Shown piece after piece: positions 4,697 through 21,440 of a DNA stretch of 36,925 nucleotides. Under the pieces are notes generated by a model. That model was not told the origin of the DNA, did no database searches, and was given only the letters and a program-made list of their open reading frames with translations. Source of the DNA: Actinomycetota bacterium (lineage in GTDB: Bacteria > Actinomycetota > Actinomycetes > Nanopelagicales > Nanopelagicaceae); assembly GCA_009702205.1 (NCBI GenBank), contig WLIM01000002.1, forward strand, positions 1 to 36,925. Reading direction: 5' to 3'. How positions within the stretch are numbered: position 1 is the stretch's first letter; each line of letters starts with the position of its first letter. A program made the position numbers and the translations under genes.

Positions 4697-5599
4697 CTAG
4701 AAGCCTTCCGCCACTAACTCTGCGAGAACTTGTCGCAGGAATTCGACACTAGCTTTTGCATCTGCAAATGGGCCGGCCCCGATTGCTGGCTCAGCGCTTA
4801 GGGCGTTGTCTTGTTCTAGAACAAACCACCCGTCATATCCAGCCATAACTAAATTGCGGACAACGGTGCGAATATTTGCATCGCCTTGGCCAAGTGGTGT
4901 GTAAAGCCCAGCCAACATTCCGTCATAGTAAGTAACTTCATGTGATCGAACTTTCGCGGCCATTTTGTTATTAACATCTTTGAGATGTGAGTGAGCGACG
5001 CGATCTGCATGATCTTTCGAGAAGGCGACGATATCTGTTCCACCAATCATCATGTGGCCGGTGTCTAAGCAGAATGGAATTGTTGAACCTTTTAATACGC
5101 GGTTTACATGATCTGCGGTTTCAACCATTGTTCCAACGTGTGGGTGAAGTACTGACTTCACACCAATCTTTGCTGCTTCAGCTTGGATGCGATTTAGATT
5201 GTTGAATAAAATATCCCATTCGGCATCGGTCAATACTGGAAGCTTTTCGTCGTAGCCAGTGATTCCAGAATTTGCAGCAAGAACTAAAGTCTTTGCCCCT
5301 GCAGCGACATATCCTTCGAGTTCTTTTTGAACTCCTGGAATTGGATCGTGATCAGCCCGGTGCAAAATAACTGGAACGAAACCGCCAACTGCAGTCATGT
5401 TGTGTTCTTTTAGGATTGAGGCTTTGAGTGCAGGTTCCATCGGTAAGAAACCTTCAGGACCGAATTCAGTAGCACTAAATCCAAGTTCTGCCATCTCCTT
5501 CAAAACTCTTGCAGGTGACATCTGATGTCCCCAACCTGGAACTTCGCAAACTCCCCATGAAATAGGTGCTGCTGCGATCTTTGCATTCTTTGCACTCAT
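4697..5599 (-). CDS. iolE: Sugar phosphate isomerase/epimerase-like TIM barrel; probable inosose dehydratase (IolE-like)
   Basis: APISWGVCEVPGWGHQM, TEFGPEGFLP, LHPHVGTMVET, FCLDTGHMMIGG, HLKDV: AP-endonuclease-2-type barrel, located in an iol cluster. Confidence 0.72.
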   Translation of the reverse strand: MSAKNAKIAAAPISWGVCEVPGWGHQMSPARVLKEMAELGFSATEFGPEGFLPMEPALKASILKEHNMTAVGGFVPVILHRADHDPIPGVQKELEGYVAAGAKTLVLAANSGITGYDEKLPVLTDAEWDILFNNLNRIQAEAAKIGVKSVLHPHVGTMVETADHVNRVLKGSTIPFCLDTGHMMIGGTDIVAFSKDHADRVAHSHLKDVNNKMAAKVRSHEVTYYDGMLAGLYTPLGQGDANIRTVVRNLVMAGYDGWFVLEQDNALSAEPAIGAGPFADAKASVEFLRQVLAELVAEGF

Positions 5600-6561
5600 T
5601 TGGTGCTCCTGTCTTTGTTATTTTCTAGATTGACTTTATTAGCGATTGCTATTGGTTTAACTCCAGTTAGAACATCGCGGGCACCTTGTGCCGCCATTAC
5701 ATATGTTGCGATGGTAGCTTGATTACTTAATCCCATTACATGTGGTGTGAGAACAACGCTCTCGTGGTCAAAAATTGGATGATGCTTAGGTGGTTCGAGA
5801 TCAAAGACATCTAAACCAAGGCCGCCAAGATTTCCGCTATTTAAAGCTTGTAGAGCAGCATCCAGATCAACAAGTGCCCCTCTTGAGCAATTAACTAAAA
5901 TTGCGCCTCTTTTTATTACTTCAAACTCTGTTTTTCCAATCAACCCTGTTGTATCTGTAGTAAGTGGCAAGTGCAGAGTAATTAAATCCGACTTAGCAAG
6001 AAGTTCTTTAACTGAATTAACTTTTATTGAAGCAGGGACTTCTGCGATTGGATCGAAAGCAAGGATTTTCATTCCGAAGACTGAAGCAATTTCTGCTACT
6101 CGCTTTCCAATTCGCCCATATCCAATAATTCCTAAAGTTTGGTTCTCTAAATCGCCGACTGGATATTTGGTGCGATCGCTCCAATTTCCTGACGCCACCA
6201 ATTTTGTTAGTGGGCCTAAGCGCTTAGAGAGCGCGAGAATATGTGCCAAAGCTCCCTCGGCAACTGCATTGGTGTTGCTTCCGGGAGTTATAACGACAGG
6301 AATATTTCGAGCATCTGCTTCTGCTAAATCAACTAACTCTGTTCCGACTCCAGTGCGGGCAATTACTTTTAGGTTTGGCATTGATTCAAATACAGATCTA
6401 TTGAAATCAAATGCAGCGCGCACAAGTGCGCCTTGAGCAACTTCCAAATCTCTTGGCGTTGGATTTTCGATATAACTAAAATCCGGACCCAGAATCGGCG
6501 CAACTATTTGAGCTGCTATTGGCCCTAGGCCAACAATAATTGGGTGCGAATTAGTGCTCAT
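5596..6561 (-). CDS. D-isomer-specific 2-hydroxyacid dehydrogenase (SerA-like)
   Basis: ARTGVGTELVDL, LGIIGYGRIGKRVA, LHLPLTTDTTGLIG, LVNCSRGALVD, GLDVFDLEPP, LTPHVMG. Start overlaps upstream stop (TAATG). Confidence 0.9.
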   Translation of the reverse strand: MSTNSHPIIVGLGPIAAQIVAPILGPDFSYIENPTPRDLEVAQGALVRAAFDFNRSVFESMPNLKVIARTGVGTELVDLAEADARNIPVVITPGSNTNAVAEGALAHILALSKRLGPLTKLVASGNWSDRTKYPVGDLENQTLGIIGYGRIGKRVAEIASVFGMKILAFDPIAEVPASIKVNSVKELLAKSDLITLHLPLTTDTTGLIGKTEFEVIKRGAILVNCSRGALVDLDAALQALNSGNLGGLGLDVFDLEPPKHHPIFDHESVVLTPHVMGLSNQATIATYVMAAQGARDVLTGVKPIAIANKVNLENNKDRSTK

Positions 6562-7781
6562 TATTTTGCAATCGCCGCCGTTGTTCCAGTGGCAGGTTTA
6601 ATTGCTACCCACTTCTTTGATTCAGCAGATTCTTCAATTGCTGAAACCACTCGGGCTGCTGAAACTGCGTCATGAATATTTGAATTCTTAGTGACTCCCC
6701 CGAAATAAGCCTCAAGGAATTTGCGTGCTTCCACAATTTTTAAATCGTCATAACCCATTGAAGTTCCGGCTCCGGGTTGAAAGTTTCCAAAGTCACCAAA
6801 AGTTGGTGAAGCCATTACGCGTTGGTAGCCGACATGATCGCCTTTGCGCCCTATTGCAATTTCAATTTCATTCATACGTTCAAAATCCCATTTAACCGAA
6901 CCTTCGGTTCCGTAAATTTCAAATGTATAACTTGCACGTGGTCCAACTGCAACGCGAGATGCCTCGATTGTTCCAACTGCTCCTGCAGCAATCGCGTTGT
7001 CTGCAAACTTAATTAAAGCGCCGCCGTAATCTTCATTCTCTACCGGCTCCATTTTTCCACCTTCAATGACTGCGAAGTGAGTTCCGCTTCCCATTTCTAA
7101 TACCGGACGTTCGGTAATAACCGTTTTGGTCATTCCACTAACTTCGGCAATCGGTCCAACTAAATATTGAACTAGATCGGCAAGGTGGCCCATTAAATCT
7201 CCAAGAACACCGCTGCCAGCAAACTTACGAATGAAGCGCCATGAAAGTGCGCCATTTGGTTCTGCCGAATAATCGGCAAAGAATGTGCCGCGAATATTTG
7301 TGATTCGACCAAGGGCGCCACTAGCGATAAGTGCTTTTGCATGTTCAACTGCTGGGGCATTTCGATAGTTAAATCCGATAGTTGTTGTTACACCTGCTGC
7401 TATTGCTGCAGCCTCAACCGCTTCTGTTTCATTTGCTCCGCGGCCTACAGGCTTCTCAATCCAAAAGGATTTTCCAGCTTTTGCAGCAGCAATTCCGATT
7501 TCAGCATGCAAGAAATTTGGTGCGCAGATTGAAACAACATCAACGTCTGGGTGCGCTAATACTTCTTTGTAATCAAGGGTTGATGATTCATAACCCAGAA
7601 CATTTACTGCGTAATCAGCGCGTTCTTGCACATTATCAGCTGCAATTATTAAGCGCGGTTTGATGCCTAGTTCTGGATAAACAATTGGAAGTGATTGATA
7701 GGCGCGAGAGTGAACTTTTCCCATCCAGCCAACGCTTATTAGGCCAACACCGACAGAACGATTTGGAATTGCTGAAGTCAT
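6561..7781 (-). CDS. Gfo/Idh/MocA family oxidoreductase
   Basis: VGLISVGWMGKVHSRAY, DVVSICAPNFLHAEI, WIEKPVGR, GFNYRNAPAV. Confidence 0.87.
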   Translation of the reverse strand: MTSAIPNRSVGVGLISVGWMGKVHSRAYQSLPIVYPELGIKPRLIIAADNVQERADYAVNVLGYESSTLDYKEVLAHPDVDVVSICAPNFLHAEIGIAAAKAGKSFWIEKPVGRGANETEAVEAAAIAAGVTTTIGFNYRNAPAVEHAKALIASGALGRITNIRGTFFADYSAEPNGALSWRFIRKFAGSGVLGDLMGHLADLVQYLVGPIAEVSGMTKTVITERPVLEMGSGTHFAVIEGGKMEPVENEDYGGALIKFADNAIAAGAVGTIEASRVAVGPRASYTFEIYGTEGSVKWDFERMNEIEIAIGRKGDHVGYQRVMASPTFGDFGNFQPGAGTSMGYDDLKIVEARKFLEAYFGGVTKNSNIHDAVSAARVVSAIEESAESKKWVAIKPATGTTAAIAK

Positions 7782-7794
7782 TTTCTTCCTTCTA

Positions 7795-8547
7795 CTATTT
7801 CTTAAGTTGGGTTACTAAGTTTGTGATTGCGCCTGCAAGCAGGGTTGAATCAGATCCAATTGCAATAAATTTAAAGCCTTGATCAATAAAACTTTGTGCC
7901 GCAGTTGCATCTGCCGCCAAAATTCCAGCAACTTTGTTATTAGCCTTTGCTGCTGCAACTACCTTTGACGTTGCTTCTAAGAATTTTGGACTCTTAAAAT
8001 CACGAGGAACACCAAGTGCAAAACTTAAATCAAGCGGCCCTACAAATAACAAATCAGCCCCCTCTATCTTCGCTATAGCTTCAATATTCTCTAAAGCTTT
8101 TAGGGTTTCAATTTGGATAATGCATGCAGCTTTGGATTTTTCAGTTAGCCCTGAAAGATCGCGGCCCCATTTTGCGCTGCGGTTATAGGTCGCAACACCA
8201 CGATCGCCAAATGGTGGATATGACATGTGTTTAACAATTTCGCTAACTTGATCAGGCGTTTCTATTCTAGGAATCATTACGCCACTTGCACCTGCATCGA
8301 GCGCACGTCCGATACGAATTCTTTCCATAGATTCAACGCGAACTAAAGTTGGAATTCCATATGCCATTCCTGCAACAACGGTTGGGCCGACTAAATCCTC
8401 ACCGGCACCACCATGTTCTAGATCAAGTAGAACCCAATCAACTCCCCCAACAGCTGCAATTTCAGCCGCCATTGGTGTACCCATGCCAAGGAAAGTTCCG
8501 ATGGTTACGTGGTTGGGATCGGTAAATTTATGCATTACGCATGCCAT
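7795..8547 (-). CDS. HpcH/HpaI family aldolase (2-keto-3-deoxy-sugar-acid aldolase-like)
   Basis: GTFLGMGTPMAAEIAAVGGVDWVLLDLEHG, GASGVMIPRIETPDQV, YPPFGDRGVA, QIETLKALENIEAIAKIEGADLLFVGPLDLSFALG. Alternative start at 8535 forms TAATG with the iolD stop. Confidence 0.92.
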   Translation of the reverse strand: MACVMHKFTDPNHVTIGTFLGMGTPMAAEIAAVGGVDWVLLDLEHGGAGEDLVGPTVVAGMAYGIPTLVRVESMERIRIGRALDAGASGVMIPRIETPDQVSEIVKHMSYPPFGDRGVATYNRSAKWGRDLSGLTEKSKAACIIQIETLKALENIEAIAKIEGADLLFVGPLDLSFALGVPRDFKSPKFLEATSKVVAAAKANNKVAGILAADATAAQSFIDQGFKFIAIGSDSTLLAGAITNLVTQLKK

Positions 8548-10499
8548 CTTTGAGTTGAAAGTCCGGCTTCATAATCTGCGCGAATAGCAGCGACCCATGG
8601 CTGTGTTGAAACTTCAGCAGGAGCAACATCCCACCAAACATTTGAAGCAGGAAGATTTGCATGTTGAATCGTTGGAACAACAATCACAACTGGTCCATTT
8701 ATTGTGCGTGCTGTTTCTAGCGCGTTTCGAATTTCATCTGGAGTAGTTGCATAAATTGCCTTTGCGCCCATTCCTTCTGACATTTTAATTAGATCGATAT
8801 CTAGGTAATCACCTTCGAGTCTTGGTGCAGTGCCTTTTGTGCTTCCGGCTTCGGCAACTGATGGACCAGCTTGGCGATATCTAAATTCGTTTCCGAAGTG
8901 ATGTCCTACGCGCCACATTTGTAGGCGTCGAATAACTTGGTAGCCATGGTTTTCAGAGACCACAACAGTCATGTTGATTCCTTCTTGTGCAGCAGTCACT
9001 AATTCGGTTGGAGCCATTACAAATGTGCCATCACCGATGAAAACTAAGACGCGCTTTGATTGATCTGGAGTTGCAAGGCGAACTCCGATACCAGCAGGAA
9101 TTTCATATCCCATACACGAGAAACCAAATTCCAAATGTGCAAACTTACCTTTGGTTGCATCCCAAGCTTTTTGAATGTCTCCTGGAGCACCGCCAGCAGC
9201 AGCAATAATTACATCACCGCTCTTTGCAGTTTCATTCATCAATCCAATCAATTGTCCTTGGGTAATTACGGCATTAGTTACAGGTGAATCTGGAAGTGTT
9301 GTCTTATCAAATTTAATATCTGGATTTATCGCATCGGCAAGTTGCTTTGTCCAAATTGTTACACCGCTCTTAATTTTCGTAGCCCAATCTGATGACACTT
9401 TATAACCAGCAACAGCTTGTGTTAATTCGATTAAAGAAAGTTTGGCATCGCCAAGAATTGCAATTGCTCCCTGCTTAATCGCATCGCTTTCGGTGATGTT
9501 TATAGATGCGAATTTCACGTCAGGATTTTGGAACATTGATTGTGAGCCAGTCGCAAAGTCAGTTAGACGGGTTCCAATAGAAAGTATTAGATCTGCTTCG
9601 GCTACTAATTTGTTTGTTTCTGGCGAACCTTCAAGACCTAAGCCCATTAAGTGCCAATCTCCTGGGTTTTGAATTGCCCCCTTACCGCCAAAAGTTTCTG
9701 AGACTGGAATACCAGTCGCATTTGCAAATGCTTCGAGTTGTGCGGTTGCGCCTGAATAAATCACACCACCACCAGCAATAATCAACGGCTTCTTCGCATC
9801 TTTAATTAATTTAGCTACCTGGCCAATATCTTCACGCTCTGGAATTGCGCGACGTATCTTCCATTCGCGGTCTTCAAAGAATGCTTTAGGAAAATCAAAG
9901 GCATGGGATTGAATGTCTTGTGGCAGTGCTAGAACAACTGCGCCAGTTTCAACTGGGTTAGCTAGAACTCTAAATGCACTTGGAAGTGAATAAAGAAGTT
10001 GTTCGGGACGAGTAATTCGATCGAAGAATTTTGCTATCGGACGGAAGGCATCGTTAACCGAAATATCTGGCCCAAGTGGATGCTCTAATTGTTGAAGAAC
10101 TGGACCTTGGCGACGAGTTATATATGAATCACCAGGTAGAAGAAGGACTGGAAGATGATTAACAGTTGCTAGACCAGCAGCAGTAACCATATTTAGTGCA
10201 CCGGGCCCGATTGAAGCTGTAACTGCAAATGTTTGGGTGCGGTTTGTGGCTTTAGCGAAACCAATTGCGGCATGTGTTAGCCCTTGTTCGTTACGACCTT
10301 GAACAAAGGGAAGAATGTCATTGTATTGATCGAGAGCTTGTCCAAGTCCCGCAACGTTTCCGTGACCAAAAATTCCCATTGCTGCAGGAATGAAACGGCG
10401 TTTAACACCATCTGCAACCGTATATTGCGCAGCGATAAATCGAACCACTGCTTGGCCAACTGTTAGCCTTTCAGTTGCACCGTAATTTGGATTTGTCAT
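8535..10499 (-). CDS. iolD: 3D-(3,5/4)-trihydroxycyclohexane-1,2-dione hydrolase (IolD), ThDP-dependent
   Basis: AAMGIFGHGNVAGLGQAL, QGRNEQGLTHAAIGFAKA, ThDP-binding FIGDGTFVMAPTELVTAAQEGIN. Start moved from ORF-track 10526 to ATG 10499 (MTNPNYGATERLTVGQA), preceded by AGGGGA. Confidence 0.93.
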   Translation of the reverse strand: MTNPNYGATERLTVGQAVVRFIAAQYTVADGVKRRFIPAAMGIFGHGNVAGLGQALDQYNDILPFVQGRNEQGLTHAAIGFAKATNRTQTFAVTASIGPGALNMVTAAGLATVNHLPVLLLPGDSYITRRQGPVLQQLEHPLGPDISVNDAFRPIAKFFDRITRPEQLLYSLPSAFRVLANPVETGAVVLALPQDIQSHAFDFPKAFFEDREWKIRRAIPEREDIGQVAKLIKDAKKPLIIAGGGVIYSGATAQLEAFANATGIPVSETFGGKGAIQNPGDWHLMGLGLEGSPETNKLVAEADLILSIGTRLTDFATGSQSMFQNPDVKFASINITESDAIKQGAIAILGDAKLSLIELTQAVAGYKVSSDWATKIKSGVTIWTKQLADAINPDIKFDKTTLPDSPVTNAVITQGQLIGLMNETAKSGDVIIAAAGGAPGDIQKAWDATKGKFAHLEFGFSCMGYEIPAGIGVRLATPDQSKRVLVFIGDGTFVMAPTELVTAAQEGINMTVVVSENHGYQVIRRLQMWRVGHHFGNEFRYRQAGPSVAEAGSTKGTAPRLEGDYLDIDLIKMSEGMGAKAIYATTPDEIRNALETARTINGPVVIVVPTIQHANLPASNVWWDVAPAEVSTQPWVAAIRADYEAGLSTQRWHA

Positions 10500-10509
10500 G
10501 TTGTTCCCC

Positions 10510-11898
10510 TTACCAGCTTCGTCCATGAAGGATTATGGTTTTTTCTTCGGTCATTTCACTTACTGTCGAACGAACTCCTTCTTTGCCTACGCCACTTGAT
10601 TTAACTCCGCCGTAAGGCATCAAGTCAGCGCGCCAAAGTGGCGTCCAATTAATGTGAATAATTCCAGCATCAATTTCGCGTGCGGATTGAATTGCAACAT
10701 CTACATTCTTTGTAAAGACACCTGCTCCTAGGCCGTAAACCGTGCTGTTTGCCAGAGCAATAGCCTCTTTTATTCCATTTGCAGAACTAACAGCAATTGC
10801 AGGACCAAATAATTCGTCTTGTGCGAATGCTGATTTTGGATCAACATCACAAACTATTGCGGGTGAGACCAAAGTCTTATTTCGTTCCCCACCTGTAAGT
10901 AAAGTTGCACCTGCATTGACCGCAGCCTTTATCGAGGCTTCGACTCGAATAGCTTCGGCTTCAGTAATTAGAGTTCCTACCTTCGTATCAGGGTTTTTAG
11001 GGTCACCAATTTTTATCGCCTCTACTTTTGGCTTTAGTGCATCTAGAAAATTTGCCATAACTTTTTCATCGACTATTACGCGTTGTACTGAGATACAAAC
11101 TTGGCCAGCATTTATATATCCACCTAATGCAATGGCATCGGTGGCATACTCGATGTCGGCATCATCTAACACAACTACGGGGCAAGAGGAGCCAAGTTCA
11201 AGTGAAAGTTTCTTAACACCAGCAACGCTAGAAATATGAGTTCCGGTTGCAGTTGAACCAGTGAAAGATATTTTACGAACTCTGGAATCTGTAACTAGTG
11301 CGTTACCTAACTCAGAACCTGATCCATGTAGAACTTGGAGAACGCCTTCTGGTAATCCAGCATCGATAAAACATTTAGCAAGTGCCAAAGCTGTCAACGG
11401 TGTTGTGCGAGCTGGCTTTAGAACAACTGAATTTCCAACAGCTAACGCGGGCGCGATCTTGTGCAGAACTAGGAGTGCTGGGTAATTAAATGGACTAATC
11501 GCAACAACTACTCCAACTGGTTGGCGCAAAGTGAAACCAAGTTTTTCTAAGCCAGTTCCCTTGTTTGCATCAAGTGGAAGTGTTGAACCGTAAAGCTGCG
11601 AGCCTTCAAAAGCGGCAAGGCGAATAATTTCACCTGATCTAGATGCCTCACCTCTTGCTTCCAACAAACTCTTACCGTTTTCGCCAGAGATTATTTGTGC
11701 AATCTCTTCGCTTCGCTCATCAGCAAGAGCAGCAGCTTTGAGCAGAACTGCGCTGCGGATATGCGCTGGAGTATGACGCCATAAATCAGCGCCACTTACT
11801 GCTTTTGCAATTGCATTATCTACATCAGCAATCGTTGCGACAGGAGCTTGCCCAATTACTGCGCCATCGAATGGCGATTTAATATCCTCTAATTGCAT
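10510..11898 (-). CDS. NAD(P)-dependent aldehyde dehydrogenase (lactaldehyde/GapN-like rather than CoA-acylating IolA/MmsA)
   Basis: PVGVVVAISPFNYPALLVLHKIAPALAVGNSVVLKPA, FTGSTATG, LELGSSCPVVVLDDADI, GQVCISVQRV. Confidence 0.9.
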   Translation of the reverse strand: MQLEDIKSPFDGAVIGQAPVATIADVDNAIAKAVSGADLWRHTPAHIRSAVLLKAAALADERSEEIAQIISGENGKSLLEARGEASRSGEIIRLAAFEGSQLYGSTLPLDANKGTGLEKLGFTLRQPVGVVVAISPFNYPALLVLHKIAPALAVGNSVVLKPARTTPLTALALAKCFIDAGLPEGVLQVLHGSGSELGNALVTDSRVRKISFTGSTATGTHISSVAGVKKLSLELGSSCPVVVLDDADIEYATDAIALGGYINAGQVCISVQRVIVDEKVMANFLDALKPKVEAIKIGDPKNPDTKVGTLITEAEAIRVEASIKAAVNAGATLLTGGERNKTLVSPAIVCDVDPKSAFAQDELFGPAIAVSSANGIKEAIALANSTVYGLGAGVFTKNVDVAIQSAREIDAGIIHINWTPLWRADLMPYGGVKSSGVGKEGVRSTVSEMTEEKTIILHGRSW

Positions 11899-11899
11899 A

Positions 11900-12934
11900 T
11901 CAACGTACCGCCTTCAGAGATGTCGAAGATTTTGATGATCTGCGTATGACAAGTCTTGGCTCAAGAAGAAAAGTCTTGCCCTTCTTAATTGGTTCACTTG
12001 GTTTTTCAACTAGAAGTTGCGCAGCCTTATTCGCAATTTCGATATTTGCTGGATCAATTGATGTTAATGAAATTTGACGAAGGTCTGCCAAGAACGTGTT
12101 GTCATAACCCACGACTGCAATATCGCCTGATATTGCGCCTTGCGCACCAATCGCGAGTAGATCGTTATATGCAGTGATTGCGGTTGGAGCTGATTTTGAA
12201 TTTACCAAATTGCTTGCTGCTTCAAATCCTGCGGTTTCGGTGGCTGCACTTGCAAGTTGAATTTGAATATATTTCGCTAAACCCTTCTCAGCCATTACAG
12301 CTTTATATGCTTCACGGCGAGATTGCGATACCGCACCATCTTCAAATGAAATATGAGCGATTCTTTGGTGTCCATTTTCAATTAAATGCTCAATCAAGAG
12401 TCGCATACCGGTCTCATCATTTGATCTGACAGTAGTTGCACGAGATAGACCTTCAGGAATCGCACTTGCCACAACTATAGAAACGCTTTCCGGTAAGGCA
12501 GAGAGTTGATGAATTTCTGGAATAGAACCGACGACTAGAACACTTTTTGGTCTTAAATCTATTAGTGCGCTAACAGTTCTCGAATCCAATATTTGTGATC
12601 CGGCACCATCTGAGAGCATTGCCGATGTCATAAAGCTATATTCACCTTTTGCTTCAAGTGCTGATCTAACTTGATCAACAATTTGTGCGAATAGTGGGTT
12701 ATGTAAATCTGCAACCAAGATTCCAATAAATGTTCCGGTTTCGGCAGCTAGCGAACGTGCCAAGAAATTTGGCGAAAATCCAAGTTCATCTGCCGCCTTC
12801 ATGACTAATTGTTTGCGATATTCGCTCACGGTTTGGGGCGCGGAATAGACCAAAGAAACTAGGGATTTTGATACTCCAGCCTTTGCTGCAACGTCGCGAA
12901 TAGTTGGACGTTTTGTCCTTGAAGTAGTTGTCAT
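11900..12934 (-). CDS. LacI family transcriptional regulator
   Basis: N-terminal HTH PTIRDVAAKAGVSKSLVSLVYSAPQTVSEYRKQLV plus periplasmic-binding-like domain (IGILVADLHNPLFAQIVDQVRSAL). Confidence 0.95.
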   Translation of the reverse strand: MTTTSRTKRPTIRDVAAKAGVSKSLVSLVYSAPQTVSEYRKQLVMKAADELGFSPNFLARSLAAETGTFIGILVADLHNPLFAQIVDQVRSALEAKGEYSFMTSAMLSDGAGSQILDSRTVSALIDLRPKSVLVVGSIPEIHQLSALPESVSIVVASAIPEGLSRATTVRSNDETGMRLLIEHLIENGHQRIAHISFEDGAVSQSRREAYKAVMAEKGLAKYIQIQLASAATETAGFEAASNLVNSKSAPTAITAYNDLLAIGAQGAISGDIAVVGYDNTFLADLRQISLTSIDPANIEIANKAAQLLVEKPSEPIKKGKTFLLEPRLVIRRSSKSSTSLKAVR

Positions 12935-13902
12935 GAATGGACCTCAGGATTTGTGAGTGCAGTAATTTTTCCGGTATCAATCTCAGTTTTAAGTGCGATT
13001 AAAAGATCTCGAAGTGGCGTTGGCCCAATTCCAAGTGCCTTCTTGGTTGCTACATTGGAGAGAGAAGTATCGACTGGAACATTTCCAGGGAATTGATCTT
13101 CAAGTGATGGTTCGGCTTCACGCAAAAGTGTTTTATCCAATTCAAAAATTTCACATATTAGTCGGGCATAATCCATACGATTAATAGCATCATCGCCAAC
13201 TAGATGAAATGTGCCAGTAGCTTTTCTAGAGATGATACGTTCTACCTGAGCGCCAATCTCAGATGCAAGTGATGGCGCCGTAACTTTATTTACCAACTCA
13301 CCACCAAAAACTGTAAATGTTTTTCCAGCTTTCAAATCTGCAACTAGAGCTGAAGCAAAGTAACCAAATCCAACATCTTGAGTTCTAGGTCCGACTTCAA
13401 GAGTCTGATGTATTCCCATTACGCCATCAACTCTTGCAATGGCTCCGGTATCTGGAGCTAGATCGCGAATTACCTGTTCGCCCAAGGCCTTAAGTACGCC
13501 ATAGAAATTAACTGGATTACCAGTGTCAGTTTCAAGAGCCATATGACCCGTGCCATCCATGACCCAACCTGTTGAAATATAAATAATTTGCGCGCTATTT
13601 AAATTAGCAGCGTGTGTAACTCGTTGGGTGAGGCCGACAAATGAGTCGTAAGCATAAGCACGGTTTTGTTGGAGCTTATTAAAATCATTTGCAATTGCAG
13701 AATGAACAATTGCAGCGCAACCTTTAGTGGCATTAGCAATTGAATCAATACTTGATAGATCTGTTGTTACGGTCTTCCATGGGAGTTCTTTTTCGGGATT
13801 ACTTCTTACTAGTCCGATAACTTCATGGCCTGCAGCCAGCAACATATTTGCGATATTGCCGCCAACGAAACCGTTGGATCCGGTAACCGCAATCTTGGCC
13901 AT
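12931..13902 (-). CDS. NAD-dependent epimerase/dehydratase-family (RmlD-like SDR) oxidoreductase
   Basis: MAKIAVTGSNGFVGGNIANMLLAAGHEV start at ATG 13902; the upstream 31 residues in the ORF track look non-coding. NFYGVLKALGEQ carries the Tyr/Lys catalytic pair. Confidence 0.85.
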   Translation of the reverse strand: MAKIAVTGSNGFVGGNIANMLLAAGHEVIGLVRSNPEKELPWKTVTTDLSSIDSIANATKGCAAIVHSAIANDFNKLQQNRAYAYDSFVGLTQRVTHAANLNSAQIIYISTGWVMDGTGHMALETDTGNPVNFYGVLKALGEQVIRDLAPDTGAIARVDGVMGIHQTLEVGPRTQDVGFGYFASALVADLKAGKTFTVFGGELVNKVTAPSLASEIGAQVERIISRKATGTFHLVGDDAINRMDYARLICEIFELDKTLLREAEPSLEDQFPGNVPVDTSLSNVATKKALGIGPTPLRDLLIALKTEIDTGKITALTNPEVHS

Positions 13903-13994
13903 AGTTATAAACCCAATTCCTCTAGTTTTTACCTGCGCTCCCCTGTTAGGATTGGACCGCTCCAAAACAATAGCCTTAAACCAGGTTTCATTCA

Positions 13995-14008
13995 ATAGTT
14001 CGTTCTAT
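13995..14008. promoter_or_regulatory. Candidate LacI-type operator in the divergent SDR/iolB promoter region
   Basis: ATAGTTCGTTCTAT: imperfect inverted repeat (5 of 7 pairs) with central CG, 15 nt upstream of iolB ATG. It overlaps the perfect palindrome TTCTATAGAA (14003-14012). Single occurrence, so weak. Confidence 0.25.
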
Positions 14009-14022
14009 AGAAAGATAGGCCC

Positions 14023-14922
14023 ATGAGCAATCCTCGCTATTTCTTCAAGAAGGGCGAGCTAGCCAACGGCGGTTGGGATGTAATCGTTGATGGATCACTT
14101 CCTGGTTGGAAACACACTGGCACTCGCGTAGCAACACTTACCGGTGGCAAGAGTTTTGAGATCGCAAGCGACAAAGTTGAACGCCTAATCTGGCCATTGG
14201 ATGGCGAAGGGATTGTTGTTGATTACATCGTTAATGGCACAAGCAAGAGTCAGAAATTAGCGGGGCGTAAATCAGTCTTTCATGGCCCAACAGATGTTCT
14301 CTATCTTTCGATTGATACCTCTATAAAAATTTCTGGAACTGGGCGTTTCATAATCGCTGAAGCGCCTGCGAAGAATTCATTTCCGGATAAATATATTCCA
14401 GCTAAGAGCGTTCCAGTTTTTAGCAGAGGATCCGGTCCGGCCTCCAGACAAGTTCATAACTTTGGTGATCCAAGTGAATTGGCTGCGGATCGATTTATTG
14501 TTGTAGAAATTATTGTTCCAGCAGGAAACTGGTCCGGTTCTCCTGCACATAAGCACGACACATATATTCCTGGCGTTGAATCTAATCTTGAAGAAATTTA
14601 TTATTTTGAAGCTGCAGTTAGCAAGAACCTACCGGCGCAAGAGAATGCAGATCCAATTGGTTTCTTTCAAGGACGGGCATCTGATGAACGTGAATTTGAA
14701 TTAACGACAGAAGTGCGAAGCGGTGATGTTGTTCTTGTTCCACACGGTTGGCATGGTCCAGTAATGGCTCAACCAGGCTACGATCTTTATTTTATGAATG
14801 TGATGGCAGGTCCAGACCCAGATAGATCTTGGAATATTACTGATGACCCAGCACAAGGCTGGATAAGAAAGACTTGGAACGATAAAGATATCGATCCAAG
14901 ACTTCCCTACTTAAATAATTAA
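14023..14922 (+). CDS. iolB: 5-deoxy-glucuronate isomerase (IolB)
   Basis: VHNFGDP, EIIVPAGNWSGSPAHKHDT, NLEEIYYFEA, SGDVVLVPHGWHGPVMAQPGYDLYFMNVMAGP. Confidence 0.95.
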   Translation: MSNPRYFFKKGELANGGWDVIVDGSLPGWKHTGTRVATLTGGKSFEIASDKVERLIWPLDGEGIVVDYIVNGTSKSQKLAGRKSVFHGPTDVLYLSIDTSIKISGTGRFIIAEAPAKNSFPDKYIPAKSVPVFSRGSGPASRQVHNFGDPSELAADRFIVVEIIVPAGNWSGSPAHKHDTYIPGVESNLEEIYYFEAAVSKNLPAQENADPIGFFQGRASDEREFELTTEVRSGDVVLVPHGWHGPVMAQPGYDLYFMNVMAGPDPDRSWNITDDPAQGWIRKTWNDKDIDPRLPYLNN

Positions 14923-15893
14923 GGACGGCCCATCTTTGCAAAGATGGCATCAAAGAACTTCGCGAATTTAAGTGATTGATCCATAGGCATTAACCAATCG
15001 CTTCCACCACGAACAACACGGGCAAAGGAATCAGCCATCAATTGGTATGGATCGCACGCTTCAAAACGTTCGATTCGAACCTTGCCATCGATAGTAATTT
15101 CTAGCGTGCTTGGGTTGTTATGTGAGTTAAACGAATCATTTCCACCAGTGCGAAGTTCACCCTTTGTTCCCTCAATAATGAACCAGTGAGTTAATTGAAT
15201 ATTATCTGAGGCAACAGTTTCAGCTTTTGCGCCACCAATAGTGAAGTTCGCACGAGTAGTTTCGTCTGTTCCACCCTTGTGCCAAATAACTTGAACATCT
15301 AAGTCCGTAATTTCGGCAAAGTCCATCGCCCAAAGTGGGGCAACAGTTGAATAAGGTCCAAGGTCATAAAGAATTCCGCCACCAAGTTTTGGATCAAGGC
15401 GAATATTTTCTTGATCAAGTCCGTCATATGTAAAACAAGTTCTAATTTTAGTAATTGTTCCAAGTTCACCAGAGGCAACAATTTCTCTAATTCTTTGGCT
15501 GCGTGGATGCCAACGGTTCCAACTAGCTTCAACAAAAATTCGGTTAGTCTCTTTTGAAACTGCAATTGCTTCTTCAACTTCGGCAGCGTTCATGCCAAGA
15601 GGTTTTTCACATAGAACATGCTTTCCTGCGCGCATCGCCTTTATGGCTAAAGGAAGGTGCAGTGAATTTGGAAGTGAGATGTAAACAGCTTCGACTTTTG
15701 GATCTGCGAGAAGTTCGTCATAGCTTGTGTAGACATTTCCATTAGGCGAAATAGTTAGCGCTTTAGTCTTGTCACGTGATGCGACTGCATAAATCTCACC
15801 AACATTTGATTTTGATATTGCGGGAAACAAAGCTCGCTTTGCAATTCCGCCAGCACCAATAAAACCCCAACGTACCTTCTCTATTTTTTCCAT
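14919..15893 (-). CDS. Gfo/Idh/MocA family oxidoreductase
   Basis: VRWGFIGAGGIAKRALFPAI, VYISLPNSLHLPLAIKAMRAGKHVLCEKPLG, EASWNRWHPRSQRI. Confidence 0.88.
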   Translation of the reverse strand: MEKIEKVRWGFIGAGGIAKRALFPAISKSNVGEIYAVASRDKTKALTISPNGNVYTSYDELLADPKVEAVYISLPNSLHLPLAIKAMRAGKHVLCEKPLGMNAAEVEEAIAVSKETNRIFVEASWNRWHPRSQRIREIVASGELGTITKIRTCFTYDGLDQENIRLDPKLGGGILYDLGPYSTVAPLWAMDFAEITDLDVQVIWHKGGTDETTRANFTIGGAKAETVASDNIQLTHWFIIEGTKGELRTGGNDSFNSHNNPSTLEITIDGKVRIERFEACDPYQLMADSFARVVRGGSDWLMPMDQSLKFAKFFDAIFAKMGRP

Positions 15894-15919: not shown

Positions 15920-16912
15920 TTATGGACAGACTATGTATTTAATATCGCCTTCGGCTGGCGGCGTATCTAAAACTGCTTGGACACCGTCCAAGTCAACTAC
16001 TTTAGAGATTAGGATATCTAGGTTTAATTTCCCGCTACTTACTAATTCTGCTGCTCTGCTTTGAGTTAACGGATTGAGAAATGAACCCTGAATCCGAAGC
16101 TCATTTACGACGATGCTAAAGGGATTGATTTCTAGATTTGTATCTGCGGCTGTTAATCCCAAAACAATAACGCAACCACCCCGCCTAGTTATCACTTGTG
16201 ATTGCTTAAATGTATCTACGGCGCCAGCGCATTCAAAAGTTACATCCATCCCGGTTACAACCTGCGAAACATCTTCATTCTTTGGATCTACAACCCGAGT
16301 AGCGCCAATCTTTAGCGCAACATCCCTACGAAATTTTTGACGCGTTACTAAGACAATTTCACTTGCTCCTGCAAGTTTCGCAAGTTGCACAACTAATAAT
16401 CCAATTACTCCTCCACCTAAAATAGCTACTCGTTCACCACCTTTTAACGCTGCTAAATCCATGCCGCGAATTGAACATGCAAGTGGTTCAATAAATGCAA
16501 GATGAAGCGGGTTCAATCCAGCTGCTACCGGATAAATTTGGGAATCTGGTGTTAAGACATATTCTGCGATTCCACCATTTATATTTACACCAAGTGCTGT
16601 TAGTTCAGGGCAGAAAGCGGTGCGCTTTGCAAGACAGTCAGGACATTTGCCACACACAATGTTTGGATCGATGCTTACAAGTTGGCCAACTTTAAACTTT
16701 GAAGAAGGCCCTACTTCTTCAATAACTCCACCAAACTCATGCCCCAAAATTACGGGTTTACTAGATGGATATTCGCCTTTGTAAATATGTCGATCGGTTC
16801 CACATATTCCGCAAGCTAGGACTCTTATCAAACTAAATCCTGGACCGGGTTCTGGTCTTTCAACCTCGGCGAGCTCTAATTCATTTATCGCTTTTAAAAC
16901 AACAGCTTTCAC
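15920..16912 (-). CDS. Zinc-dependent medium-chain alcohol/sorbitol dehydrogenase
   Basis: CGICGTDRHIYKGEYPSSKPVILGHEFGGVI, structural-zinc Cys cluster CGKCPDCLAKRTAFC, VAILGGGVIGLLVVQLAKLAGA. Confidence 0.92.
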   Translation of the reverse strand: MKAVVLKAINELELAEVERPEPGPGFSLIRVLACGICGTDRHIYKGEYPSSKPVILGHEFGGVIEEVGPSSKFKVGQLVSIDPNIVCGKCPDCLAKRTAFCPELTALGVNINGGIAEYVLTPDSQIYPVAAGLNPLHLAFIEPLACSIRGMDLAALKGGERVAILGGGVIGLLVVQLAKLAGASEIVLVTRQKFRRDVALKIGATRVVDPKNEDVSQVVTGMDVTFECAGAVDTFKQSQVITRRGGCVIVLGLTAADTNLEINPFSIVVNELRIQGSFLNPLTQSRAAELVSSGKLNLDILISKVVDLDGVQAVLDTPPAEGDIKYIVCP

Positions 16913-17917
16913 TTAAATTGAACTTCCATTAGGTGTAATTATTATTTTGCGCCCTTTGCCGGCTTTGAAAGTATTTAGAGCTATCTCGTAATCTTCTAGA
17001 TCAAAACGATCACTAATCATTACTTTAGGATTTAAAACACCGGAACTAAACATATCTACAGCTCGATCAAACGAATGTAAAACAGCCATGGAGCCAGCGA
17101 TTGTTATCTCTTTGTTGTAGATCCAGAATGGTTCAATTTCAATCTTCGCTTTCTCATTAGCAACACCGAATTGCAAGAAAGTTCCACCAGGCATGACGTG
17201 TGAAAGTGCCTCTTGAATTGCCTTTGCTACTCCGGTGCAATCAATTACAACATCCCAGCCTCGTGGCTGCTTAAGAGTCTTTACATCAGATGTTGCAAAA
17301 TCAATTCCAAGAGTTCGGGCTGTCTCTAACTTAGATTCATTTATATCCACTATCGAAACACTTGCTGCGCCATTTCGCTTAGCAAGCTCGGCCATCATCA
17401 GACCCATAGTTCCGGAACCATAAATTAGATAGTGCGAACCAGGAATTCGTGGAAGTACGTCATATCCGCGAACTGCGCAAGAAAGTGGCTCGATAAGTGC
17501 CGCCTCAAATACATCAACGCCACTTGGAAGTATGTGGCAGTTTTTAACTGGAGTCTTCAAAAGTTCTGCTGCAGCGCCAGGATAAGAAACTCCAAGGGCA
17601 TTCCAGTTTTCGCAGAGATTGCCCCGTGCACGGCGACAGTAGAAACATTCTCCGCAATGTAGTGACGGATCCACCGCTACTAAATCACCAATTTTTACTT
17701 CAGTTACGTTCTTGCCGATTGCTACAACTTTTCCAGCCATCTCGTGGCCCGGGATAATTGGAAGTGTTGGGGCGAATTCACCTTCAAGAATATGTAAATC
17801 TGTTCCACAAATTCCAACGCTTGCAACTTTTACAATTACATCTCGGTCTCCAGGGGTTGGATCTGGCACGTTTTCAATGGAAACTTTTCCAACACCTGTA
17901 ATTACCGCAGCTCTCAT
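16913..17917 (-). CDS. Zinc-dependent medium-chain alcohol dehydrogenase
   Basis: VGICGTDLHILEGEFAPTLPIIPGHEMAGKV, CGECFYCRRARGNLC, YLIYGSGTMGLMMAELAKRNGA. TAA stop directly abuts the next gene's ATG. Confidence 0.92.
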   Translation of the reverse strand: MRAAVITGVGKVSIENVPDPTPGDRDVIVKVASVGICGTDLHILEGEFAPTLPIIPGHEMAGKVVAIGKNVTEVKIGDLVAVDPSLHCGECFYCRRARGNLCENWNALGVSYPGAAAELLKTPVKNCHILPSGVDVFEAALIEPLSCAVRGYDVLPRIPGSHYLIYGSGTMGLMMAELAKRNGAASVSIVDINESKLETARTLGIDFATSDVKTLKQPRGWDVVIDCTGVAKAIQEALSHVMPGGTFLQFGVANEKAKIEIEPFWIYNKEITIAGSMAVLHSFDRAVDMFSSGVLNPKVMISDRFDLEDYEIALNTFKAGKGRKIIITPNGSSI

Positions 17918-17919
17918 GG

Positions 17920-19149
17920 TTATCTAGTTATCTGCTTAACATGAGATGGATTTAATTCTGCAAGTGAACGCGCTCCAAGCAATTTCATTGTGCGAACCAT
18001 TTGAGTACGCAAGATTTCTAAGCTCCGATCAACGCCCTCTTTGCCACCAGCCATTAGGCCATATAGATAGGCGCGGCCAATCCAAGTGAAATTCGCACCA
18101 GATGCAATCGCGGCAACAACATCGGCTCCATGCATAATTCCGGTATCAACATGTATTTCAAACTTCTTGCCAACCGCTTTACGTACCTCTGGGATTAATA
18201 AATATGGAACTGGTGCACGATCTAATTGACGCCCACCATGATTCGAAAGTGTAATTGCATCGGCTCCGGCTTTTTGAGCAAGAACGGCATCTTCAACGTT
18301 CTGAATTCCTTTTACAACAAGATTTCCACTCCATTGTTTGCGGATCCACTTTAAATCATCAAATGTAACTGTCGGATCGAACATTGAATCTAATAATTCG
18401 GCGACTGTTCCTTTCCAACTATCAAGTGAGGCAAATTTAAGTGGATCAGTTGTTAGGAAATTCATCCACCAAGCCGGCCGTGGAATTGCGTTCAAAATAG
18501 TCTTTGAAGTTAGCGATGGTGGAATTGTCATTCCATTGCGAACATCGCGAAGTCTCGCACCAGCAACAGGAACATCAACTGTTAAAACTAAAGTATCGAA
18601 GCCCGCAGCTTTTGCACGATCAACCAGGGCCATTGAGCGATCGCGGTCTTTCCACATATATAGCTGAAACCAGTTGCGACCATCGGGTGCAATATTTGCA
18701 ACATCTTCAATTGAGCGCGTTCCCATTGTTGAAAGAGTAAATGGAATACCAGCATCGCGAGCAGCGGTAGCTCCGGCATATTCGCCTTCAGTCTGCATCA
18801 TGCGAGTAAAACCAGTTGGTGCTATTCCAATTGGCATAGCCATTGTTTGACCTAACATTTTTACCGTTGTATCAACAATTGAGACATCCCGCAGGATTCG
18901 AGGTTGGAATTCAATTTTTTCAAAAGTTTGTCGTGCTCGAGTCAAACTCGATTCGCTATCTGCGCCACCATCCGTGTAATCAAATGGCGCCTTCGGTGTG
19001 CGACGCTTTGCAATATCTCTTAAATCGTAAATTGTTAAAGCCCGCGAAAGTCTGCGCTTGCGACCATTGAAGATTGGTTTACGGAAGCGCATTAAACCTG
19101 CCAACTCTTTAATTCCAGGAAAGCGGCGTTTAACTTTTAATTGACCCAT
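17920..19149 (-). CDS. lldD: FMN-dependent alpha-hydroxy-acid (L-lactate) dehydrogenase, LldD-like
   Basis: [77 protein letters not shown]. Confidence 0.92.
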
Positions 19150-19196
19150 AGGAAAATACTACACATCGGATTTGGCGGAGTATGCTTCCAATCCTT

Positions 19197-19475
19197 ATGC
19201 GTAAGGTCCTGATTCTTAACGAGAATGACAACATTGCCGTCTGCCTTGTGGACTTAGAAATTGGTGAAGTCATCGGACAAGATGGCCTTAATCTCACTAT
19301 TCAAAATCGCATTCCTCGCGGCCACAAAGTTGCGACAAAAAACATTTCAAAAGATGACGGCATTATTAAATATGGTGAGCGCATGGGTCACGCAACTTCC
19401 GAGATTAAAATCGGTGAGCACGTACACACGCATAATGTTCTTGGCGATCGCCTCTCAACGGAGCAAGTGAAATGA
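19197..19475 (+). CDS. UxaA-family SAF-domain subunit (altronate dehydratase N-terminal domain as a separate protein)
   Basis: MRKVLILNENDNIAVCLVDLEIGE...IPRGHKVATKNISKDDGIIKYGERMGHATSEIKIGEHVHTHNVLG matches the SAF domain of UxaA/GarD (RGHK, IIKYG, GEHVHTHN). ORF-track start is 19182; ATG 19197 fits better. Confidence 0.9.
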   Translation: MRKVLILNENDNIAVCLVDLEIGEVIGQDGLNLTIQNRIPRGHKVATKNISKDDGIIKYGERMGHATSEIKIGEHVHTHNVLGDRLSTEQVK

Positions 19476-20284
19476 GCATGAAGGGATTCGACCATGGAAA
19501 TCGTGGGATTGGTGTGCGAAACCATCAATTGATTCTTCCTTCCGTAGTCTGTTCAACCCGAGTATCTAGTCGAATTGCACGTGAAGTAGGCGCAGTTACT
19601 TTTGCTCACCAACATGGATGTGGCTTTATTGGAAATGACGTTGGTCGCATTACAGATTACTTCGCTGCTCTCGCAAATCATCCAAATGTAAGTTCAACTT
19701 TAATTGTTGGACTCGGATGTGAAACGCTTCAGGGAAATGAATTAGCAGATAAATTACTTACAAAAAATAAATCAACAAATTATTTAGTCACTCAAGAAAG
19801 TGGCGGCGTAGCTGGAACAGTTAGTTCAGGTATTTCTGCGGCGAGAGAATTATCAGCTAATTTTCCAACTGCCCAGACGGTTCTACCCAGACTTCATCTT
19901 GGAATTGATCTCTCCAATGATGATTTCAAAGTTGATGAGATAGTTGCCGCGCTAACTGAAGTTGGCGTAGATATAACAGTTGCGGCTTCACATAAGAACT
20001 CTGGTCTTAATTTTTCAGATTTAATGGAAGCTGGCGTTCACGTGATTCTCTCTTTCCCTGATCCAAACCAGCCACCTTCAGGTTTTCCGCTGATCCCGAC
20101 GATAAACGTTTCAAGCGGATCACCACTTCATTTGGCTATTGCAAATGATTTTGATTTAGGGCCGAAGGCAGAATCTGAAGAAATTATGGAGAAGATTTAT
20201 AACGTCGTAAACGGTGAACTTACGAAAGTTGAAGCCATCGGTGCCGGCGAAATTATTGCTGCTCGTGAGGTGCGAAGTGTCTGA
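19472..20284 (+). CDS. UxaA-family core subunit A: retains GC motifs, lacks ECGGSD region (shortened)
   Basis: RGIGVRNHQLILPSVVC, HQHGCGFIGND, HPNVSSTLIVGLGCETLQGNE, and a C-terminal PTINVSSGSPL segment. ATGA overlap with the SAF gene. Confidence 0.85.
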   Translation: MSMKGFDHGNRGIGVRNHQLILPSVVCSTRVSSRIAREVGAVTFAHQHGCGFIGNDVGRITDYFAALANHPNVSSTLIVGLGCETLQGNELADKLLTKNKSTNYLVTQESGGVAGTVSSGISAARELSANFPTAQTVLPRLHLGIDLSNDDFKVDEIVAALTEVGVDITVAASHKNSGLNFSDLMEAGVHVILSFPDPNQPPSGFPLIPTINVSSGSPLHLAIANDFDLGPKAESEEIMEKIYNVVNGELTKVEAIGAGEIIAAREVRSV

Positions 20285-21440
20285 TCAATTAAAAGCATTT
20301 GCAAGACCTGATGGTCGTTGGGGATTGCGTAACCACGTATTAATACTCCCTCTGCATTCAGCTCTTTCGGCAACAGCGAGAAAGATTGCTGATGCTTCAA
20401 TCGGCGCAGTAGGAGTTAGTCACGACTGGTCTGGTGAAGTAGATGGCGACTTTGCTCGCATCACCAAAACAATTTCAGGCTTTGCCGCCAATCCAAATAA
20501 TTTTGCGACAATTTTTCTAACAATAGGAACACCGCATGAATTAGCGATAATTGAAGTTGCAAAGAAGATTGGTTTAGCCCGAGCCGAAGTTTTAAACGTT
20601 GCAGAATATGGCTCAATGGCAAAGATCGCTGATATCGGTCTTGCAATGGCAAATTCACTTGTTAAAGAAGCTAATTTGCAAGCCAGAGTTAGTGCACCTT
20701 GGAGCGCAATTATTCTCGGTCAAGAATGTGGTGGTTCGGATGCGCTCTCCGGAATAACTGCAAATCCTGCACTTGGCGTTGCCAGTGACCGACTTGTAGA
20801 ACTTGGTGCGGCATCCGTATTAGGTGAGACAACAGAAATTCTTGGTGCCGAACATTTACTTGCGGCTCGCGCAATTACTCCTGAGATTGGTGCCCAAATA
20901 ATTGAGACTGTCGCAAGGTATGAGCGATCAATTAATTACGAAGGCATTGATATGCGAGGCGCCCAACCTTCACGCGGAAATATAGAAGGTGGATTAACAA
21001 CTTTGGAAGAGAAATCACTTGGCGCGGCTAAGAAAGCGGGAAGTGCACAATTCTCTGGCGTTCTTGAATATGCAGACCAGGTTCCAAATTCCGGGCTCTA
21101 CTTTATGGATACTCCTGGACATGACACTGAACAATTAACTGGTTTTGGAGCTGGTGGAATCAACATAATAGTTTTCACAACTGGCCGTGGAACTCCAACT
21201 GGTTCGGCGATTGTTCCAACAATCAAAGTAGCAACAAATAGCACCATGGCAAATGCAATTCCAGATTTGATTGATTTAAATGCCGGAACAATTGCTGATG
21301 GCTTAAAAACTTTAGCGCAAGTTGGTGGAGAGTTATTTGATTTAATTCTTGAAGTTGCCAATGGTAAGACGACTAAGGCTGAAAAAGGTTTGCATCACGA
21401 GTTCTCACTATCTCGGATGTATAACACCGTTATTCGTTAA
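20277..21440 (+). CDS. UxaA-family core subunit B: retains ECGGSD and C-terminal catalytic region, lacks GC motifs
   Basis: GTG start 20277 (VSDQLKAFARPDGRWGLRNHVLILPL), QECGGSDALSGITANPALG, PSRGNIEGGLTTLEEKSLGAAKKAGS, FTTGRGTPTGSAIVPTIKVATNS. ORF-track start 20214 lies inside the preceding gene. Confidence 0.88.
   Translation: MSDQLKAFARPDGRWGLRNHVLILPLHSALSATARKIADASIGAVGVSHDWSGEVDGDFARITKTISGFAANPNNFATIFLTIGTPHELAIIEVAKKIGLARAEVLNVAEYGSMAKIADIGLAMANSLVKEANLQARVSAPWSAIILGQECGGSDALSGITANPALGVASDRLVELGAASVLGETTEILGAEHLLAARAITPEIGAQIIETVARYERSINYEGIDMRGAQPSRGNIEGGLTTLEEKSLGAAKKAGSAQFSGVLEYADQVPNSGLYFMDTPGHDTEQLTGFGAGGINIIVFTTGRGTPTGSAIVPTIKVATNSTMANAIPDLIDLNAGTIADGLKTLAQVGGELFDLILEVANGKTTKAEKGLHHEFSLSRMYNTVIR

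Follow-up and report, generated by a model that had tools for sequence, protein, structure and literature searches.

The DNA analysed here (the window, 36,925 nucleotides of contig WLIM01000002.1, assembly GCA_009702205.1) comes from a 1.01 Mb genome whose nearest named relatives are freshwater actinobacterial metagenome-assembled genomes (MAGs) of the Planktophila/Nanopelagicaceae group. Its plus strand carries three coupled genes of a putative dehydratase related to UxaA and GarD. The first encodes a SAF subunit of 93 amino acids (19197-19475, from the ATG at 19197; 97 amino acids if the upstream ATG at 19182 is used) that matches PF08666 in Pfam with a score of 34 bits, above the cut-off of 21. 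It is followed by core A, of 270 amino acids (19472-20284), and core B, of 387 amino acids (20277-21440). All three reading frames are intact, with overlaps of 4 nucleotides between SAF and A and 8 nucleotides between A and B, and a reading-frame check upheld the open reading frames, coordinates, and GTG start of core B at 20277 reported in an earlier note on this DNA. Core A has a full GD_AH_second domain (PF04295, 101 bits) and ends in a truncated, motif-less remnant of GD_AH_C (PF20629) that stays below threshold (18 bits, residues 172-266). Core B scores above the cut-off for both domains, with a degenerate GD_AH_second (50 bits) and a full GD_AH_C (310 bits). The two proteins share the same domain order, the opposite domain being degenerate in each, and both Pfam and the alignment identify them as paralogues, as the earlier note had held. 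A single broken gene is ruled out as their source, since each core has the N-terminal signature and both domains.

The catalytic features of the superfamily are divided between these two paralogues. A study of a UxaA/GarD D-arabinonate dehydratase described four superfamily-conserved cysteines (Cys134, 173, 208, and 276) as likely rubredoxin-type iron ligands (PMC6336799). We aligned both cores with superfamily members that have a complete core, among them UxaA and GarD of E. coli; these have exactly four invariant cysteines, labeled here Cys1 (in S/T-V-x-C), Cys2 (in HxxGC), Cys3 (in GLGCE), and Cys4 (in ECGGSD). Read from an alignment made without that paper's own protein, Cys1-4 appear to correspond to its four cysteines. 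Core A of the window retains Cys1-3, namely Cys27 in PSVVC (Cys1, a proposed iron ligand, 19550-19552), Cys50 with His46 in HQHGCG (Cys2, 19607-19624), and Cys83 with Glu84 in GLGCE (Cys3, 19709-19723), together with Gln108 (19793-19795); a leucine stands at Cys4, within the segment LGIDLSNDDF that marks the site of the lost ECGGSD motif (19895-19924). Core B has the reverse pattern, with alanine, a gap, and threonine at Cys1-3: Ala29 replaces Cys1 (20361-20363), SHDWSGE occupies the HxxGC position of Cys2 (20418-20438), TIGTPHE that of GLGCE and Cys3 (20520-20540), and Ala109 takes the place of Gln108. It keeps Cys4, as Cys151, which lies with Asp155 in QECGGSD (20721-20741), a proposed iron ligand and active-site motif. 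The earlier note had reported all six motifs correctly and recognized their complementary loss, to which the alignment adds Cys27 and Gln108, both missed before. In the alignment, core B does not keep the metal residues elsewhere. The UxaA/GarD superfamily (COG2721) is recognized by four cysteines in one chain; neither core has them, and the three genes have them jointly, so that, judged by sequence, the locus would belong to the superfamily only as a three-gene set.

To describe the division in general terms, we used 71 alignment columns that are at least 90% invariant among 38 complete cores, 16 of them in the second domain and 55 in the C-domain, and tabulated residues for 16 trios of the window's family, 7 other bacterial trios, and 10 haloarchaeal trios. 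Cys1, Cys2, Cys3, and one glutamine are present in 100% of the A subunits and 0% of the B subunits of these 33 trios (Cys1, for instance, in 33/33 A and in no B), and Cys4 is present in 0% of A and 100% of B. The B subunits retain 51-54 of the 55 C-domain invariants, of which A has 6 in the window's family, 7 in the other bacteria, and 20 in haloarchaea; A retains 13-16 of the 16 second-domain invariants. Haloarchaeal B still has 12/16 second-domain invariants, and the four that are missing are exactly Cys1-3 and the glutamine. With the other 12 intact, the loss touches functional residues alone and differs from general decay.

The same arrangement recurs well beyond the window. Scanning 85,462 species genomes with an A-subunit alignment as the query returned 80 loci, a sample biased towards trios by its seed. 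In 72 of the 74 three-gene loci, A carries Cys1-3 without Cys4 and B carries Cys4 alone, the remaining two being interrupted by contig ends; the other six loci are ordinary two-gene or fused forms, each with all four cysteines in a single core (6/6). The window's genus conserves the trio, as do scattered genera elsewhere in its family, Nanopelagicaceae, and trios also occur in Acidimicrobiia (Acidimicrobiaceae), Thermoleophilia (Solirubrobacteraceae/Conexibacter), one Chloroflexota MAG, and many haloarchaea. The SAF gene was found in every complete bacterial trio. The haloarchaeal gene order is different (B-SAF-A) and the 3+1 split the same, and annotated haloarchaeal plasmids label all three proteins 'UxaA family hydrolase'. 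B-seeded searches in four other groups yielded more trios with the same split, many cores with all four cysteines, and a third set of lone cores with Cys4 only. On complete contigs, A never occurs without B. The split is general, and the 100%/0% partition of residues across 33 trios shows that it is not due to chance. The earlier note had suggested looking for genomes in which such a complementary pair is adjacent, and they exist in both bacteria and haloarchaea.

All three genes are under purifying selection, with ratios of nonsynonymous to synonymous substitution (dN/dS) of about 0.02-0.09 for SAF, A, and B against close relatives. Such low values mean that neither core is a decaying pseudogene. 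The truncation of the C-domain of bacterial A, by about 100 residues, would suit a duplicate on its way to being lost, which we nonetheless regard as scarcely credible: for A alone, dN/dS is about 0.02-0.07, and the gene persists in dozens of species and across distant phyla. Selection and distribution together rule out A as a pseudogene. AlphaFold2 monomer predictions were confident for both proteins (predicted local distance difference test, pLDDT, 92 for core A and 93 for core B), and in Foldseek, the best match of each was GarD (6u7l), with TMq 0.62 and E 1e-6 for core A and TMq 0.79 and E 8e-27 for core B.

Since A and B are both full-length and confidently folded, they might be two separate enzymes that act on different substrates and share a common SAF subunit. 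We consider this very improbable, given that A lacks about 49/55 C-domain invariants, including Cys4, both conserved glutamates, the asparagine, both lysines, and the arginine, that B lacks Cys1-3 and the glutamine, and that every trio shows this reciprocal loss. The trio is instead, quite likely, an obligate heteromeric sugar-acid dehydratase of A, B, and SAF with one composite active site. In this model, an ancestral two-domain core would have been duplicated; copy A would have retained the half-site of the second domain (Cys1, His/Cys2, Cys3, and Gln) and shed the C-terminal half, and copy B would have done the reverse, retaining Cys4-GGSD and the Glu, Asn, Lys, and Arg residues of the C-domain. 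A and B would pair through their homologous folds, with SAF docking in its usual capacity of a lid or a domain that contacts the substrate, to give a single productive iron site between the second domain of A and the C-terminal domain of B, the reciprocal site being dead. The predicted reaction is the dehydration of a 2,3-dihydroxy acid to a 2-keto-3-deoxy acid. Once two copies depend on each other in a heteromer with a single live site, reciprocal loss maintained over great evolutionary distances is to be expected. Because each core is without the half-site of its partner, both are predicted to be inactive alone, and the iron site would come from two proteins. We infer, beyond the residue pattern, the physical A-B-SAF complex, the sharing of the site in trans, the iron, and the substrate.

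Comparison with known systems places the trio among, and apart from, several relatives. E. coli UxaA (D-altronate dehydratase) and GarD (galactarate dehydratase, PDB 6u7l) share with it the three domains (SAF, GD_AH_second, and GD_AH_C), the four cysteines, and, for GarD by Foldseek, the fold of the cores; in these enzymes, all motifs lie on a single chain, whereas the trio has three chains, with the motifs divided over two paralogous cores. Enzymes encoded by two genes, a SAF and a complete core (e.g., on the Bacillus sp. S3 plasmid, L024, and in Bacillota L113/L117), resemble the trio in their separate SAF subunit, and their core is about 40-49% identical to B. Unlike the trio, they have all four cysteines in one core where inspected, and no paralogous partner. 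PMC6336799 also mentions a heteromeric L-fuconate dehydratase from Paraburkholderia mimosarum, which is listed here with the two-gene enzymes, its protein being outside the inspected set. The third relative, SuyAB ((2R)-sulfolactate sulfo-lyase), also has a separate SAF and core, and SuyB-like cores are without Cys1-3; however, it has two components and no A-type partner, while the trio has three coupled genes and A is always present.

SuyAB is the template for the main alternative reading of the trio, in which B and SAF would form the whole enzyme, with no cysteine-iron site, and A would have a regulatory, stabilizing, or iron-handling role. Cores that have Cys4 and lack Cys1-3 and the glutamine do exist next to SAF, have no A, and appear to work alone, and sulfolactate sulfo-lyase was noted as an exception that is without the conserved cysteines (PMC6336799). 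We nevertheless judge this reading unlikely. Trio B retains 51-54/55 C-domain invariants versus 38/55 in the lone cores; in C-domain trees, trio B from bacteria makes up a single clade, separate from the SuyB-like cores, with which trio B fails to cluster ('SuyB-like' being an assignment by sequence that includes no experimentally verified SuyB). Moreover, A retains catalytic-type second-domain residues at 100%, and on complete contigs it is always accompanied by B.

Two points nonetheless weigh against an obligate composite enzyme. The iron-ligand role of the four cysteines is proposed, not proven, and cores with Cys4 and no adjacent A occur, both SuyB-like and in some Chloroflexota, so that A may be dispensable for a core that has Cys4 only. 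The account of duplication followed by complementary degeneration given in the earlier note holds as regards paralogy, reciprocal loss, and the three-gene form, and its word 'obligate' is slightly weakened by such cores.

The lone cores themselves are a diverse set with only generic annotation. SuyB-like cores without Cys1-3 and the glutamine were seen in haloarchaea (L208-L212), at L165, L171, L225, and L226, and at L054, L055, and L057, of which L055 and L057 belong to the window's own family; where checked, they lie beside a SAF gene and have no A partner. Four Chloroflexota cores (L154, L158, L161, and L162) have ECGGSD, while Cys1-3 are replaced by Gly/Arg or a gap; no SAF or A-type gene was found within about 1.5 kb of them. 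They may represent a second split whose partners are unlinked, or a cysteine-independent enzyme. A complete single-chain homologue is absent from the window's genome and from most relatives, and the open-access literature searched contains no description of a three-component dehydratase (subscription papers were mostly outside the search), in line with the earlier note, whose author knew of none.

In the C-domain tree, B subunits of all bacterial trios fall into a single clade with support of 100/96, so that the trios of Nanopelagicaceae, Acidimicrobiia, Thermoleophilia, and Chloroflexota have a common origin. The same tree splits bacterial from haloarchaeal B, although a single clade of all B is not rejected (p-AU 0.30, approximately unbiased test), and all A subunits group together with weak support (57/79). 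A tentative reading, to which we give rather less than even credence, is that the 3+1 split arose independently in bacteria and haloarchaea from an ancestral homodimer whose sites were already formed in trans, with Cys1-3 from one protomer and Cys4 from its partner. From such an ancestral in-trans site, duplication would repeatedly have given an obligate heteromer with one live site.

As for the substrate, the members of the window's family are probably dehydratases of D-altronate or a similar hexonate. That the compound is D-altronate itself, derived from uronate breakdown, is a suggestion we hold to be evenly balanced. It stems from the presence of uxaC and a reductase in the window's own genome, the absence there of UxuA and of any other GD_AH_C gene above the cut-off, and the convergence of trio, uxaC, and reductase in relatives. 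Many members of the family have the trio converging with a glucuronate isomerase gene, uxaC (above the equivalog cut-off), and with a mannitol-dehydrogenase-family reductase of the UxuB/UxaB type; in the complete 1.55 Mb genome G035, all of these are directly adjacent. Among nine family genomes checked, UxaC is present in 7/9, UxuA is absent from 8/9, and 8/9 have no other GD_AH_C gene above the cut-off. A UxaA role would mean that the trio supplies the step that follows UxaC and a UxaB-type reductase in genomes without a further altronate dehydratase; 7/9 genomes fit this. Several observations weigh against this assignment: two near-complete genomes, G014 and G189, have the trio and no UxaC; the neighboring reductase scores lower than all curated cut-offs, is a slightly better fit to fructuronate than to tagaturonate reductase, and may be a fructuronate-type enzyme; the immediate neighbors of the window's trio are not hexuronate genes; and the window's genome is merely 71% complete.

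Those neighbors, on the minus strand, are a divergent, LldD-like flavin mononucleotide (FMN)-dependent 2-hydroxy-acid dehydrogenase (17920-19149), conserved in the window's clade, and two zinc-type MDR dehydrogenases (15920-17917), conserved in the closest relatives. A myo-inositol catabolism cluster adjoins the region (4697-15893) and includes an aldehyde dehydrogenase, IolD-like and IolB proteins, several Gfo/Idh/MocA dehydrogenases, a LacI regulator, and an HpcH/HpaI-type aldolase. Scanning the dehydratase locus for promoters and terminators gave no signal above shuffles. Elsewhere in the same genome, contig C2 (L230:2280-7748) carries uxaC, then a mannitol-dehydrogenase-family reductase and a zinc dehydrogenase, not adjoining the trio; by eye, the gene upstream resembles hexulose-6-phosphate synthase.

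Other lineages have other surroundings. In a Planktophila MAG (L099:2329-9057), the trio lies beside an alpha-L-fucosidase, an aldo/keto reductase, and a DHDPS-family aldolase, which suggests a role in L-fuconate metabolism. At L090:3-3702, pieces of an FGGY kinase, a class II aldolase-type protein, and a HAD-like open reading frame of 222 amino acids precede the trio, with a similar layout at L077, L082, L088, L095, L098, and L105; this upstream set suggests yet another sugar pathway. The haloarchaeal neighbors point to other sugar acids. The substrate probably varies among trio lineages.

The architecture of the UxaA/GarD active site is poorly known, with one full-length solved structure found (6u7l), and the division between A and B reveals the residues that belong to either half. 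Haloarchaeal B is, in effect, a natural minimal mutant, differing by the removal of three cysteines and one glutamine. If the composite-site model is true, complementation in trans is predicted, and the trio would offer a clear example of an active site that degenerated in a complementary manner and was then fixed for long spans of evolution. It would also represent an uncharacterized three-component class of dehydratase, common among abundant actinobacteria of fresh water as well as among haloarchaea, and masked so far by the label 'UxaA family hydrolase'.
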